A stretch of DNA of 49,453 nt from a virus (IMGVR_UViG_3300046517_002077:1-49453); one strand, 5' to 3'; shown: positions 7,265-37,786, numbered from the stretch's first letter. Notes: generated from the sequence alone by a model not told the origin. Translations and numbers: made by a program.

Positions 7265-7413
7265 TTAATCGGCTTTTTTGCAAACTAGGCTGGTGTTTAC
7301 AATGCATCCCTCGTGACGACGCCACAGGTTGTTGGGGTGAATGTATACACTGTCATAGACGTTACGGTTTCGTTGATCGTGCGACTCTTCGAGCTTATTG
7401 TGATCGCCTATGA
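7261..7413 (+). CDS. Cys-rich mini-protein, 50 aa
   Basis: Starts MINRLFCKLGWCLQC with ATGA overlap of the preceding stop. It ends overlapping the portal start. Cys/His cluster: CKLGWCLQC, then GCWGECIHCHRRYG, enough for one or two zinc sites. The pattern (Cys pair, R-D-x-x-x-G, Cys pair) parallels the 38-aa protein at 5284-5400, suggesting a duplicated small gene. Confidence 0.6.
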   Translation: MINRLFCKLGWCLQCIPRDDATGCWGECIHCHRRYGFVDRATLRAYCDRL

Positions 7414-9143
7414 ACGCTCGTGCACAAGGCGGAATGACTGCAACTGCCGTTGATCCCATCGGGATCAAGCTGCGCAAGCAATTCGACGGTCGCCTTGCAG
7501 GACTGAAAGTCAATCGCTACAGCTGGTGGGTCCACTGGAGGGAGCTAGCCGACTATGTTCTACCACGCCGCTACAAATGGCTTATCACTCCGAATCAGGC
7601 TGCCCGTGGTTCGCCGATCAATCAACACATTATCGACTCGACAGGTACCCTGGCTGCGCGAAACTGTGCTGCGGGAATGCTTACAGGAACTACAAACCCG
7701 ACTAAACAATGGTTTAGACTTAAAATCAACAAGATTGACTCTACCCAGACTGGACCAATTTCTCTTTGGCTGGCTGAATGCGAACGTCTACTTCGCGCCA
7801 TATTTCAGGCTTCTAACTTCTACCAAGCCATGGCGACGTTCTACTTCGACCTTGTCGTCTTCGGCACGGCCACGATTTTAATCTACGATGATTTCGAAAA
7901 CGTTATCAACTGTTACAACCCCTGCGCTGGGGAATACTTCCTCGACAACTCCGGCAACTTCCGCGCCGATGTTTTCTATCGCGAATTCGTTCTCACCGTT
8001 CAACAAACCGTCGATCGATTCGGCGTTGAAAACTGTTCCCCCAGCATCGCTCGCCTTTACAAAGAAGGCAACGCAATGCTCACCCGCGAGGTCCTTATCG
8101 GTCATGGCATTGAACCAAACGACAAACGCGATCTCGGCTACCCCGAACATTTCAAATACCGAGAACTCTATTGGGAACTCGGCTCTTCCTCGGACCTCTA
8201 CCTTCAAAAGAAAGGCTACTTCGAGAATCCTCTTGTCCCTGGCCGCTGGGACCTTGTTGGTAATGATGCGTATGGTCGATCTCCTGCTATGGATGCCCTT
8301 GGGGACATCAAACAGCTACAGCAGGAGACTAAGCGCAAAGCGCAAGCTATCGACAAGACTGTTAATCCGCCTATGGTGGCAGATATTCAGCTTAAGAATC
8401 AGCCTGCTTCGTTATTGCCAGGCGGTGTCACCTACGTCACCGGATTCTCCACCTCCGGCAAGCCTGGATTTGCCTCCGTCTATGAAATGAAATTCCCTGT
8501 CGGAGAGATCTCTGAAGACCTTAATGAAATTCGTGAGCGGATTCGCGAGATATTCTTTTCCAAAATCTTCCAAGCTATTTCCCAATTCGAAACGCGAAGC
8601 AACGTCTCCGCCACCGAAATCGACGCTCGTCGCGCCGAAGCTATGCTAATGGCCGGTCCTGTCGTCGAACGGATCATGAATGAAACCCTACCCCAGGCAA
8701 TCGATCGCAGCTTTGCCATAGGCTCGCGCAAAGGCATCTTTCCTCCGCCTCCACCTGAACTCGGCGCTGGGGGTCAAACCATCCAAATCGAATTCATCTC
8801 CATGCTTGCCCAAGCCCAAGAAGCCGCCTCTGCCTCTGGCATCGAGCGTGTATTTGGCGTAGCAGGCAATGTCGCTGGCATTGACCCAGCGATTATGGAC
8901 GTGATTGATTTCGACTATGGCGTGATGAAATACTCCTCGTTGCTCAACAACGACCCTAGACTCATTCGCTCTCCTGACGCGATTGCTGCGATTCGCCAGC
9001 AACGTGAGCAACAGCAACAGCAACAAGCCATGGCCCAGCAAGCTGACACCGCACAGAAACTCGCCGGTGGCGCTGAAACCCTTTCCAACATCAACGTCGG
9101 TGGAGGCAAGAACGCCTTACAAAACCTAACCGGAGCTTCCTAA
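7410..9143 (+). CDS. Portal (head-tail connector) protein, 577 aa
   Basis: A T7-type podoviral portal, forming the dodecameric ring through which DNA is packaged and ejected. Recognisable stretches are YSWWVHWRELADYVLPRR (about 34-51), AARNCAAGMLTG, the FGTATILIYDDFENVI region and GYPEHFKYRELYWEL. The end is Gln-rich (REQQQQQQAMAQQ), as in many portals. Length is typical. It starts at ATG 7410, overlapping the Cys-rich mini-gene by 4 nt. Confidence 0.92.
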   Translation: MNARAQGGMTATAVDPIGIKLRKQFDGRLAGLKVNRYSWWVHWRELADYVLPRRYKWLITPNQAARGSPINQHIIDSTGTLAARNCAAGMLTGTTNPTKQWFRLKINKIDSTQTGPISLWLAECERLLRAIFQASNFYQAMATFYFDLVVFGTATILIYDDFENVINCYNPCAGEYFLDNSGNFRADVFYREFVLTVQQTVDRFGVENCSPSIARLYKEGNAMLTREVLIGHGIEPNDKRDLGYPEHFKYRELYWELGSSSDLYLQKKGYFENPLVPGRWDLVGNDAYGRSPAMDALGDIKQLQQETKRKAQAIDKTVNPPMVADIQLKNQPASLLPGGVTYVTGFSTSGKPGFASVYEMKFPVGEISEDLNEIRERIREIFFSKIFQAISQFETRSNVSATEIDARRAEAMLMAGPVVERIMNETLPQAIDRSFAIGSRKGIFPPPPPELGAGGQTIQIEFISMLAQAQEAASASGIERVFGVAGNVAGIDPAIMDVIDFDYGVMKYSSLLNNDPRLIRSPDAIAAIRQQREQQQQQQAMAQQADTAQKLAGGAETLSNINVGGGKNALQNLTGAS

Positions 9144-33564: not shown

Positions 33565-34765
33565 TCATGTGAGACGAGGCCATGGTTTGAAGAATTCGTT
33601 GAAGGGACATCACAGGAACAAATTCCTGGGCAAAGCGGACGATTTCTCCTTCTTCGGCCTGGCCTCGTTCTTTGATAAAGTGAAGAATTTCTTCCATTGC
33701 TTTAGCATCGACATTACCTGCTCCAGCTTTGAACAAATGAGGCATGAAATATTCGGCCTCTATGAGCCAGCCTAGCGCTCTTTCGTAATCTTCCACAGAG
33801 ATAATAAGCTCTTTTCCTCGATCAACACAAGCGACGATGCACAGCTTGAGCAGGTGCACAAACCGTCTGGAGTTATAGTGAATGAGCTTGGGATGGTTTG
33901 GCACTGGAGGCATACCAGCCTTACGCCAGGCGTCGACTTTTTCGATAAATTCTTGTGAATTTCCAAGCTGACCCCAAAGCGAACTAATAACGCGCAAATC
34001 GTGGGTAAGGTTCGTTGAGTCTTTTTCGACTTTGCCAAACGCTGTGTCATTGATATGCCTTTCGTCCGAGAAGATGAACATGGCCCTGCTGGTAAACCCT
34101 TGTTCCCAAGAACCTTCGGGCATAGTGGACAACAGTTGCGAAGGGGTAGAACCAGCAAGGATATTAAGCTGCGGTGCCTTGATCTTGATATCAAGCTCTT
34201 TTGTCCGCTTCATTTCATGATAACTTGAGATAACATCGTAGAAGGTTGTCAAGCCGCCGATTAGTTCTTTGTTCCATTCTGACATTGTTACCTGCCATTC
34301 ATCGGCAAAAAGGGTCAGCGAATTGTATTCTTCGGAAATTTGAAGCGCCACATTCGTCACACTACGCCTTGACTTCTTAAGCGCATCCACAAGCGAAGCC
34401 TTACTGACCGATTGTGGGCCGATTGGATAGCCTTCGATCGTTTCACATAGCTTTCTAGCTTCCGCAATCGTGCGGCTTTTACCGACTCCTGGGTGGCCTA
34501 CAATAAACGTATACATGTTTGGATATATCTTAGCTGTTGTATGAGCCCAGACTTTCTGCTCAAGTGTCGCTCCTATGGTTGCGATCGCTGCCCAACGACG
34601 GAAGATTTCTGGCGATTCGAGATCGCTTGTGTATTCTACAAACGCATCAATCCACGAACTCAGCCTCCTCGATCCGTCTCCGTTTGTCCCCGCCCTTGTA
34701 ACTTTTGAGCCCGTTGGGATTGGCTTCGCTCCACTCGCCCCAGTTCCACCCAGTCTTACAGCCAT
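33503..34765 (-). CDS. P-loop replication ATPase/helicase candidate, 420 aa
   Basis: Walker A FIVGHPGVGKS (about 87-97) and Walker B LTLFADEW (about 150-157), then a sensor-like NILAGSTPSQLL. WIDAFVEYT and SPEIFRRWAAIATIG near the start match helicase/primase-associated (DUF3987-like) phage ATPases. An ATG at 34765 has GGAG 8 nt before it; the frame is open to 34843. Either start lies inside the polymerase gene. A start near 34660 would avoid overlap but uses a rare codon. Confidence 0.72.
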   Translation of the reverse strand: MAVRLGGTGASGAKPIPTGSKVTRAGTNGDGSRRLSSWIDAFVEYTSDLESPEIFRRWAAIATIGATLEQKVWAHTTAKIYPNMYTFIVGHPGVGKSRTIAEARKLCETIEGYPIGPQSVSKASLVDALKKSRRSVTNVALQISEEYNSLTLFADEWQVTMSEWNKELIGGLTTFYDVISSYHEMKRTKELDIKIKAPQLNILAGSTPSQLLSTMPEGSWEQGFTSRAMFIFSDERHINDTAFGKVEKDSTNLTHDLRVISSLWGQLGNSQEFIEKVDAWRKAGMPPVPNHPKLIHYNSRRFVHLLKLCIVACVDRGKELIISVEDYERALGWLIEAEYFMPHLFKAGAGNVDAKAMEEILHFIKERGQAEEGEIVRFAQEFVPVMSLQRILQTMASSHMIKPIGNHPKYGTVVYGPDQA

Positions 34766-36119
34766 AGGGAATCTCCAAGCGCCTATTATGCCTAAGCTCA
34801 ACGGGGTAGCGAAGCTGAGCAATAATCTTCGGGATAACTTCATCTTCGATTTCCTCCGGATATTGGACTATCACAGCGTCATGGATTTGCATAAGAAGTA
34901 TGCATTTTCTTTCTCTCCATACTTGAAGCATCCCTTGGTTGACGATGTCTGCAAGAGAACCCTGAGGGTCGTAGGCAATCGCTGCACGAAGCGTATCTGC
35001 ATCGTTTCGGCGGCCAAAAAAATGGCGTCGGCGGCCTGTCAAGGACGTAAGAATCCCTTCGCGCCGCAGGGTCTTATCGGTCCAATCGTGCCATTGCAAA
35101 TGAGCCGGGAAGGCCGCGAAGTAAACTGGTTGAAACTCTGTTATCATTCCAATGGGCACTTTAGCCTGGGTGGAAATCGTTTCAGGTTGTCCTCCATAGT
35201 TAGTACCGTGACCAATTTTCTTGCACATGAACCGACGGGAATAATGACGATAATATGGCGCCTCAGCAATTTCTTTATCAGCCAAGATATCACCCGTCCA
35301 AGGAAGGTCCCGCCAGCAGAGTTTGGCAACACTAGTGTGTAAATCTCCCGATTCACATGCATCGAGGTATCTCCCGTCATTGAACAAGTTCCACTCTATT
35401 GCTCCGACACATCTACTCTCCCCTTGTTCCGCATCAAAATATCCTAGCTTCATTCCTTTATCTGCGATAAAGACACTTCTGAGGCTTTCCTCAATATTTT
35501 GCAAGTTCGTACCAGTGCCAAACTCGGAAAATGATGAAGAAAGTCGTCCAGTCGTTGTTCCTCCGATATTGTAGGAAGTTCTAATTCTACCGTCAGAATC
35601 AATCTCAGTCTTAAGCATGGAAATCTTTTTACCAAGCTCTCGCATTGCTTTAATATGCGCGACCAGCGGTCTTGCGATAAGGTACGCCTCCATGCGCTCG
35701 AGGGCATTTCGATCGACGGTTGGTTTCCCTTTCTTTCGTATAACTGGTATTCCAATGTTCTCATAGAATAACTCCATTAGGTCTGGATTGCTGCGCCAGT
35801 TGAAGTCCCATAGGCCGAAGGATTCGCCGACTATTCTTTGGAGGTTAGCCTCGAGGTGATCAATTTTAGCCGTAAATTCTTCGACAACCTCGTCGCGTCG
35901 AGCAAGATCAATACGAATTCCCCGCAATCGCATTTCAAGCACCGGGCCCTGCAACGCACGCGAAAAGGCATAGGTGGAATTCGTCTGATTATCGAGTTCC
36001 GGCTGTAGCACTTCGAGGACTTCAGCTGTGACGCAACAATCCAGACCATTGTATACCTGATCTTTCTCCCAAGGGGACAGGTCTTCGGGTTGGATGATGG
36101 AGGTGTCGATGATTTTCAT
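34647..36119 (-). CDS. Family-A DNA polymerase, polymerase part, 490 aa
   Basis: It holds the thumb, palm and fingers, but only the last exonuclease motif (QVYNGLDCCVT, Tyr23 and Asp27). TTTGRLSS (188-195); motif A GYFDAEQGESR with Asp229; O-helix RRFMCKKIGHGTNYGG with Arg296, Lys300, His304 and Tyr308; motif C QIHDAVI with His413-Asp414. His304 is where Phe, Tyr or Leu usually sits, and Ala415 replaces the usual Glu. GCKTGWNWGE closes the domain. Its start overlaps the 115-aa gene by ATGA. Confidence 0.92.
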   Translation of the reverse strand: MKIIDTSIIQPEDLSPWEKDQVYNGLDCCVTAEVLEVLQPELDNQTNSTYAFSRALQGPVLEMRLRGIRIDLARRDEVVEEFTAKIDHLEANLQRIVGESFGLWDFNWRSNPDLMELFYENIGIPVIRKKGKPTVDRNALERMEAYLIARPLVAHIKAMRELGKKISMLKTEIDSDGRIRTSYNIGGTTTGRLSSSFSEFGTGTNLQNIEESLRSVFIADKGMKLGYFDAEQGESRCVGAIEWNLFNDGRYLDACESGDLHTSVAKLCWRDLPWTGDILADKEIAEAPYYRHYSRRFMCKKIGHGTNYGGQPETISTQAKVPIGMITEFQPVYFAAFPAHLQWHDWTDKTLRREGILTSLTGRRRHFFGRRNDADTLRAAIAYDPQGSLADIVNQGMLQVWRERKCILLMQIHDAVIVQYPEEIEDEVIPKIIAQLRYPVELRHNRRLEIPYGCKTGWNWGEWSEANPNGLKSYKGGDKRRRIEEAEFVD

Positions 36120-36463
36120 TGAAGGGTAAACTCTCCCAATCGAAGAATTCGACGTAGATATTCTGAAGTTGGCTCCATTGGAAGGTCTTCTGGCCAGGCT
36201 TTAGGAGCTTGAATATCTTGCAATGCCGGGACCAATTTTAATAGAAGCCCTAGGCCTCGAAGGGCTGGCGCTTCTATACATGACGGAAGCCAATAATCAC
36301 CACGCCAGGAAGAAACTTGTACATATACATTATCCAAACCAAGTTGAGTGGTATGCCGAGCAGTATACCTGCATCCTTGTGATTTTTCATAGGTTACAAC
36401 ATGAGTATTTCCATCCCAATCTAAAACACGGTTGCCTTCGTGTCTCGTAGATTTCCATTTCAT
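36116..36463 (-). CDS. Unknown gene between polymerase halves, 115 aa
   Basis: GGAGG lies 6 nt before the ATG at 36463, inside the last codons of the exonuclease gene. Starts MKWKSTRHEGNRVLDWDGNT. The first half is beta-rich (HVVTYEKSQGCRYTARH), the second Leu/Pro-rich (LLLKLVPALQDIQAPKAWP, SEYLRRILRLGEF). No HNH, GIY-YIG or LAGLIDADG motif is visible, so it is not an obvious homing endonuclease. It separates exonuclease motif II from III. Confidence 0.65.
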   Translation of the reverse strand: MKWKSTRHEGNRVLDWDGNTHVVTYEKSQGCRYTARHTTQLGLDNVYVQVSSWRGDYWLPSCIEAPALRGLGLLLKLVPALQDIQAPKAWPEDLPMEPTSEYLRRILRLGEFTLQ

Positions 36464-36464
36464 C

Positions 36465-37559
36465 CTAGTCCTCCTTTATCGTGTCAGTCTTCCTCATCCG
36501 CTTCCACGAGCCTTCATCGGTGTAAATACTCCCCAAATACCCCAAACTCTTCTCCGACTCGGGATACAACGCATGATGCAACAACATCGTATCCTCATCT
36601 GCATTCATAACCTTCACTCCGTAGGCCCGCCAGAGGAAGGCAATGTCGTACATTCCGTTTTGGAAGGTTTTCCTAGTCTTTGGATCGAGTAGAATGTCTG
36701 TGATAAGTCTCCAAGCCTCTCTCTCACTCGCTGGATTTGTGAAGTAATTTCGTCCTGTTCGCGAGGGTCTAACGAATGGAATAACGATTGCAATGTCTGG
36801 TTTCGGCGCGAAGCCAATGCACGTAATTGCTCGTCCAGCTGTTTCAATGTCGACAGAAAGTCTTTGGCACCCATCAATGTACTCCTGTTTGAATCTTCGG
36901 ATATCGTCAAGACTTGGTCCGATCCAGATTTCACGTTTCGGTCTCCTTATTTCAGGGAACTTTGCTTCGCGAGCGGCTTTGATAAAATCTGCGACTGTAG
37001 TCGGCCGGTATTCCCAATTCCGCATAACTGCCGCCGGGTGATACACCGGTAAAACCTTATACCCCTTCACTGTATGAGTAGACAGGTGGGTAGTTCCTCT
37101 AATGGTTGATATTCTAGTTGTTCCAAGAAGAGCCCAGCATGGAGTATTTCCACAAGCAATAATAAGGTTTGGGTCCTGGTCAATGAGTTCTGTGGCAAGA
37201 CGATCGATTTCTGACTCAAATTCCCTTCTAAAATACTTAGACTTTCCGAAGGAAGGAAGACCACGAATTCCGGCGTCCCGTGGGCCGCATAAATCTTCGA
37301 TCTTGTTTCCGCGTGGCCGTATGTTAAATACATTAGTTCGATAAATCTCCGGGTGCATTCGCCAGACCATATCGATAAGCCTAGGGTCTCGATCCGCCCA
37401 GAATTTGTATATATAATTCTGATCTTCCGAGGTAAGTTCAAGGACACCACCTTCGTGTAACATTCGGAGGAGTTCTATGCCTGAGGAGCCAACGAAGGCC
37501 TGTTTGATTCGCGCTTCGTTTTCTCCCCAGGCTTCGCCGAGGATTACGATTTCAGTCAT
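36465..37559 (-). CDS. Uracil-DNA glycosylase fused to PolA 3'-5' exonuclease, 364 aa
   Basis: Residues 1-195 look like a uracil-DNA glycosylase: VILGEAWGENEA (5-16), AFVGSSGIELLRML, LIIACGNTPCWALLG and PVYHPAAVMRN (171-181). Residues about 230-364 are a DnaQ-type exonuclease: LSVDIET (Asp237, Glu239) and KTFQNGMYDIAFLW (Asn301, Asp305), with HHALYPESEKSLGYLGSIY. The third exonuclease motif is missing here and found in the next-but-one gene. Likely removes uracil and proofreads with the polymerase. Confidence 0.85.
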   Translation of the reverse strand: MTEIVILGEAWGENEARIKQAFVGSSGIELLRMLHEGGVLELTSEDQNYIYKFWADRDPRLIDMVWRMHPEIYRTNVFNIRPRGNKIEDLCGPRDAGIRGLPSFGKSKYFRREFESEIDRLATELIDQDPNLIIACGNTPCWALLGTTRISTIRGTTHLSTHTVKGYKVLPVYHPAAVMRNWEYRPTTVADFIKAAREAKFPEIRRPKREIWIGPSLDDIRRFKQEYIDGCQRLSVDIETAGRAITCIGFAPKPDIAIVIPFVRPSRTGRNYFTNPASEREAWRLITDILLDPKTRKTFQNGMYDIAFLWRAYGVKVMNADEDTMLLHHALYPESEKSLGYLGSIYTDEGSWKRMRKTDTIKED

Positions 37560-37639
37560 CGTGCGGTACGACGGTAGGCTTCGTAAAGGCCTATAGCTAG
37601 CATTATCATGACTGAGATTATAACATCATCTGGGGTCAT
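37556..37639 (-). CDS. Membrane mini-protein, 27 aa
   Basis: GGAG lies 7 nt before the ATG at 37639. MTPDDVIISVMIMLAIGLYE ends AYRRTAR: one membrane segment and a basic tail. Its TGA overlaps the start of the glycosylase-exonuclease gene (ATGA), which supports real translation. Function unknown. Confidence 0.55.
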   Translation of the reverse strand: MTPDDVIISVMIMLAIGLYEAYRRTAR

Positions 37640-37786
37640 GGTGATTCTCCTTTATGCCAACCACCCCCAGGGCGCGAGTGGTCTGAAGACTCTCCCTGAG
37701 GGTGGCCTGGGCGTTAAGCTGAGTCGAGTACTCCAGTAAGCCGGTGACCGACCGGTGGCGGACAAAGGGGAGGGTCCCCTCTATTT
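37640..37786 (-). other. Structured 147-nt intergenic region
   Basis: The longest gap inside the replication cluster. Hairpin AGGGGA/TCCCCT (37766-37780) starts 6 nt after the stop at 37787. A second, CCGGT/ACCGG, lies at 37741-37755. Further upstream of the mini-gene, CCACCC/GGGTGG and GCCCAGG/CCTGGG segments can also pair. It could hold a small RNA or only a processing site. No tRNA pattern fits. Confidence 0.45.

Follow-up and report, generated by a model that had tools for sequence, protein, structure and literature searches.

The window, a stretch of viral DNA of 49,453 nucleotides (IMGVR_UViG_3300046517_002077), carries on its minus strand three neighbouring genes, which we call A, B and C. 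Gene A (36465..37559, 364 aa) joins a UDG-like domain to exonuclease motifs I and II, and gene C (34647..36119, 490 aa) holds exonuclease motif III and a family-A polymerase; both are uninterrupted ORFs with Pfam and PHROG matches. Between them, in the break, lies gene B (36116..36463), likewise an uninterrupted ORF, of 115 aa. The UDG-like domain takes up residues 2–189 of A (36993..37556; Pfam UDG, E 9e-15; weak NCBIfam match to family-4 UDG), N-terminal to the exonuclease part, where motif I is DIET at residues 237–240 (D237-I-E239, 36843..36851) and motif II is NGMYD at residues 301–305 (N301-GMY-D305, 36645..36659). In C, an N-terminal MKII segment (residues 2–5, 36105..36116) precedes motif III, YNGLD at residues 23–27 (Y23-NGL-D27, 36039..36053), and the polymerase domain (residues 77–462, 34734..35891; Pfam DNA_pol_A, E 2e-36). 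The DEDDy set, namely four acidic ligands and a Tyr in motifs I–III, is present in full but shared out over two chains.

What A carries behind the UDG-like domain is the initial portion of a DnaQ-like exonuclease, whose match to Pfam DNA_pol_A_exo1 falls below the family cut-off (E 2e-4). In the profile of phage DNA polymerases, PHROG_17, positions 548–798 correspond to A and positions 802–1242 to C. As the two are exact complements in this profile, together they make up a single polymerase of the normal kind, with a cut that falls after exonuclease motif II and before motif III. The polymerase domain itself is complete, and its catalytic Asp residues (D229 and D414 of C) are invariant across the aligned loci. 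PADLOC gave a polymerase-type match for C alone and none for A or B. The ORFs, Pfam and PHROG_17 thus bear out the layout proposed in a first-pass annotation of this DNA, which had placed a glycosylase-like domain and motifs I and II in A and motif III and the polymerase in C; the motif positions were also correct, and in the related locus L039 motifs II and III could be aligned to Klenow by phmmer. The same annotation described start/stop overlaps on both sides of B, which holds for one side only: B and C overlap in an ATGA (36116..36119), whereas A ends at 36465 and B starts at 36463, leaving one base between them. A Shine-Dalgarno-like AAGGAGG (36470..36476) lies within the last codons of A, ahead of the B start.

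How widely is the split conserved? We obtained 80 loci by scanning IMG/VR with C. A scan with an alignment brought up more than 570 candidates, and the best 80 of these stretches were kept; the loci examined are thus the top-scoring ones of each scan. For 131 of 141 distinct C proteins, A lies on the same contig, and the break is at the identical place in all 131. A further scan that started from a locus in a Phycisphaerae MAG (L190) added 77 loci that have A as well as C (63 distinct), and the split was found in all. About 194 distinct loci (131 + 63) therefore carry A and C with one common split point, and none is fused; with this recurrence the break is no chance event. Assembly error, which the first-pass annotation had named as one finding that would undo its claim, is ruled out because independent contigs from many samples carry the same split. 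We conclude that the split is real and conserved in a large group of mostly uncultured phages; Caulobacter phage Kuura (OQ067476) is the sole cultured phage in which we found it.

Single-chain homologues that span the break, a check suggested earlier, do exist in Microcystis phage Mel-JY34 and in IMG/VR loci L087–L102. By sequence these are direct relatives, and they share the domain order, a UDG-like domain and a family-A polymerase, but UDG, exonuclease and polymerase do not share one polypeptide in any locus of the split clade, where there are two ORFs. On two trees, which were drawn from loci outside the L194–L273 set and in which long branches meet at the division between the two forms, the split group fell on one side of a branch and 15–16 single-chain relatives on the other (support 99 and 100). 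This arrangement fits a single origin of the split.

Could A and C nevertheless be joined into a single protein in the cell, by an intron, an intein or a programmed frameshift? Group I introns are frequent in phage polymerase genes (PMC10580990 and references there), and 43 of the 54 loci in which A and C abut (gap of −4 to 35 nt, commonly with ATGA or TAATG) have the offset of a −1 shift (gap modulo 3 of 2). The remaining 11 have other offsets (0 in 8, 1 in 3), the open frame shared by A and C has a median of 3 nt, ahead of its start the C frame stays open for a median of 3 nt, and a slippery heptamer occurs in one of the 54. Programmed frameshifting was rejected on these grounds. A self-splicing intron was rejected as well, since Rfam introns had no match either in the window or among 16 other loci that bear inserts or are split elsewhere, and since the abutting forms are still split. 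With 54 abutting loci, varying frames and almost no shared open frame, neither frameshifting nor introns nor assembly error accounts for the split, and we regard a single joined protein as barely credible. A Shine-Dalgarno-like match of at least 4 nt lies within the last 20 nt of A in 88 of the 131 loci, and the presence of such sequences in the last codons of A suggests that translation of the downstream gene may be coupled to that of A.

A cut inside the exonuclease raises the question of whether proofreading is retained. The first-pass annotation had left two outcomes, a site completed between the two polypeptides or a site lost, and our data favour the former. All 177 aligned loci (114 + 63) have D237, E239, N301 and D305 in A and D27 in C, and Y23 of C is kept in 174 (114 + 60). 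Three deep-clade loci (L221, L223 and L235) have Arg in place of the motif III Tyr (VRNGID). Judged by dN/dS over 13 independent pairs, both exonuclease parts are under purifying selection like the polymerase part (0.17 for the exonuclease part of A, 0.13–0.16 for the N-terminus of C and 0.14 for the polymerase part).

Structure prediction points in the same direction. In locus L039 the ATG of C is in frame after the stop of A, and by reading this TAA as Gln we obtained a continuous A-Gln-C chain for AlphaFold2. The resulting model had a pLDDT of 92.1 and a pTM of 0.88, values that apply to a covalent chain with single-chain homologues in its alignment, and the junction (residues 327–334) was the sole internal stretch with pLDDT below 50. 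Foldseek placed the Klenow fragment first (TM-score 0.74–0.77 by target length, about 650 columns), with phage G20c Pol I also among the matches. When the same readthrough chain was compared with Klenow by phmmer, motif II corresponded to QNLKYD and motif III to the segment with the Klenow Tyr and Asp (Y..D), which we take to be Y497 and D501. C of the window modelled alone looked different: pLDDT was 65, 73 and 51 over the first 30 residues, with residues 24–28 below 50, the N-terminal strand was absent and the motif III helix was broken. In the joined L039 model, the same segment is predicted as a strand, which includes the MKII residues, and one continuous helix, with block means of 87–97 past the first three residues. 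This comparison is between different loci with different alignments, and the joined model is a readthrough chain and not a two-chain prediction. The first residues of C (MKIIxT...) have no counterpart in the single-chain homologues, and in this respect they resemble an addition for docking.

Assembly of the proofreading site in trans from A and C is therefore well supported by conservation and modelling, from which we infer that A and C associate and that the exonuclease is active. Alternatively, proofreading could have been lost, leaving C as an exonuclease-less polymerase and A as a uracil-recognition accessory. The cut in the exonuclease fold and the three loci that lack the motif III Tyr would be in keeping with such a loss; however, the four acidic ligands, which are spread over both chains, never vary, the exonuclease and polymerase parts have equal dN/dS, and the joined model takes the Klenow fold. 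We consider the loss of proofreading quite improbable.

What, then, is gene B? It had no match in Pfam, PHROG, NCBIfam or PADLOC, and neither a scan of IMG/VR with B peptides nor a permissive tblastn against phages returned a homologue. The family libraries contained no HNH, GIY-YIG, LAGLIDADG or endonuclease VII domain for B, in agreement with the earlier statement that it has no homing-nuclease motif, and a blastx comparison with the nucleases found in the break gave no match that would mark it as a decayed one. B had also been put forward as a possible third subunit, which would bridge A and C in a heterotrimer. Its position between the two genes on the same strand, its Shine-Dalgarno-like start and its stop/start overlap with C are what such a subunit might show. 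Yet in no close relative, and in none of the other loci examined, is B found at this place, which is empty or otherwise filled. Among relatives that have A as well as C, L007 is the nearest; it has no insert and is one of 54 loci among 131 without any; in other kin of the window the break holds an HNH gene (L008 and L009) or a GIY-YIG gene (L012); and in L006, where C is 99.6% identical to C of the window, unrelated sequence runs up to the C start codon over the 86 bases visible before the contig ends. Even the commonest insert of all reaches 25 loci only. Since the nearest kin all differ in the break, B cannot be an obligatory subunit, and we rejected this role, which given its missing homologues we hold to be extremely improbable. 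The presence of four classes of homing-type nucleases in the same slot of relatives makes a transient occupant of a homing-nuclease landing site the best reading of B.

The occupants of the break are indeed diverse. In the first set, 77 of the 131 loci have 58–1224 nt between A and C, and at least 75% of the insert is coding on the same strand in 71 of 75 inserts examined. The 93 insert ORFs fall into 73 similarity clusters, with Pfam matches to HNH_3 (8), endonuclease VII (3), LAGLIDADG_3 (1) and GIY-YIG (1, slightly below cut-off), and further to dNMP kinase, RNase H and DUF6378. Homing-type nucleases occupy the break, for example, in L008, L012, L024, L050, L052, L136, L147, L157, L158, L178, L184 and L185 and in 13 deep-clade loci, and decayed ones in L078, L083/L084, L154, L068 and L183. 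In the deeper set, 76 of 77 loci have inserts, among them a small membrane-type protein (25 loci), DUF1937 (19), DUF7768 (16) and HNH (13), and none is common to all. About 37 changes between the abutting and the insert-bearing state were counted on the tree. These observations are best read as a landing site at the A/C junction, with repeated gain, decay, loss and swap of small, often selfish genes.

Some inserts stood out individually. A relative of Kuura carries an RNase H-like gene within the break (L086:4157–4678), and an insert family of about 70 aa (MATTLL.PKV...EWC.W) recurs in L022, L023, L044 and L047. A second family, of 188 aa and with no match in Pfam, is present in two distantly related loci (L026:3328–3894 and L049:5263–5829) and may represent another type of mobile gene.

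The gene has also been cut at other places. In the sister single-chain lineage, two loci carry an HNH gene that separates the UDG part from the exonuclease part (L104:1343–1684 and L110:5626–5967), and this cut is an independent split. In L008, an HNH-AP2 gene (7352–8005) overlaps the 3′ end of C and is followed by a second, orphan copy of the tail of the polymerase, as if it had displaced the end of C. With HNH genes at these other points, the polymerase gene appears as a repeated target. Two further single-chain relatives are cut inside the polymerase domain, where the break holds a small ORF (L106:5248–5520) or a methyltransferase-like ORF (L112:6728–7594). We also considered whether the break is the only variable junction. 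This was rejected, as the spacing between A and its upstream gene (37560–37786 in the window, and the same place in 101 loci) varies just as much, from 2 to 1198 nt.

How did the first cut arise? A homing-nuclease origin is plausible but not proven; most inserts have no recognisable nuclease, and the case is built on a minority of inserts and on scars. Alternatively, a point mutation could have created a stop and a downstream start, with nucleases invading later, a scenario that concerns the origin only and leaves the enzyme mechanism unchanged. The common, compact stop/start overlaps would suit it, and so would the T4-like phage 44RR, in which the two parts of gene 43 are separated by an untranslated spacer alone (PMC2988022). 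Against it, all sampled deep branches but one have an insert, and homing-type nucleases have also cut the gene elsewhere, between UDG and exonuclease in L104 and L110 and at the end of C in L008. We regard the point mutation as possible, at somewhat less than even chances.

We thus think it very likely that the locus encodes a two-polypeptide family-A polymerase with the following mechanism and history. A and C would be translated separately and then associate, the N-terminal strand and helix of C docking into A and bringing the Tyr and Asp of motif III. Because C would supply these residues to A, the DEDDy proofreading site would be completed in trans. The split probably has a single origin in the ancestor of a large phage clade, where it fell in the loop that precedes motif III, and the insertion of a homing-type endonuclease gene is the likely cause of the first cut. 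Since then the junction would have gained, degraded, lost and swapped HNH, endonuclease VII, GIY-YIG, LAGLIDADG and other small genes, the 115-aa ORF of the window being one such occupant and no subunit. It is also conceivable, if unlikely, that the split is retained for a benefit of its own, with A as an exchangeable proofreading and uracil-sensing subunit that joins or leaves C and, jointly with this, replication fidelity tuned by the A:C ratio, as set by the stop/start junction and the gene that occupies it.

A proofreading site made of two proteins and kept throughout a clade would show, as an experiment of nature, how much division an essential enzyme tolerates. In addition, the break captures stages in the life cycle of homing nucleases at a single site, from intact nuclease through pseudogene and scar to clean junction and new cargo. 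Gene A, annotated as a hypothetical protein in Kuura, deserves to be annotated as a component of the replicative polymerase, and A and C may yield a separable proofreading subunit.

Several known systems can be compared. Among them are 'genes-in-pieces' such as the ribonucleotide reductase NrdA of phage Aeh1, which is divided by a mobE insertion and whose pieces assemble into an active enzyme (PMC2988022, PMC3267527). As in Aeh1, an essential phage enzyme is made as two separately translated polypeptides that have single-chain homologues, and the break holds a homing nuclease gene, here in relatives and not in the window; assembly of the parts into an active enzyme is supported here by models. 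Unlike Aeh1 NrdA, which is another enzyme in one phage, the polymerase described here is kept cut by a whole clade, in which the insert was lost, decayed or replaced many times. In Aeromonas phages 25 and 44RR the T4-like polymerase is likewise encoded by two genes, gp43A and gp43B, which are separated by a seg homing nuclease or by an untranslated spacer, and the halves from phage 25 co-purify and polymerise DNA (PMC2988022); gp43, however, belongs to family B. The OM43 phages MEP401 and MEP402 encode a family-A PolA as two ORFs that flank a small unknown ORF, an arrangement that recurs in related genomes (PMC10580990). In those phages the cut runs through the polymerase domain and spares the exonuclease, and no UDG domain is reported; here it is the exonuclease that is divided and the polymerase that is intact.

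Glycosylase-PolA fusions were correctly described in the first-pass annotation as known in some phages: Pseudomonas phage PaBG has a single-chain PolA with a UDG domain (PMC7412058), and Mel-JY34 is another example. The single-chain UDG-PolA proteins are without the extra junction residues of the split form, namely the tail of A and the N-terminal strand of C. Kuura has the same split as the window but lies on a deep branch (36–38% identical) and carries other inserts, two small genes between A and the gene annotated as DNA polymerase, C; where the Kuura paper mentions the polymerase, the split goes unremarked (PMC9959647). Split enzymes of such a kind are known from Aeh1 NrdA, gp43A/B and MEP401 PolA, and what appears to be new here is the position of the cut, its conservation and the turnover of genes within it.
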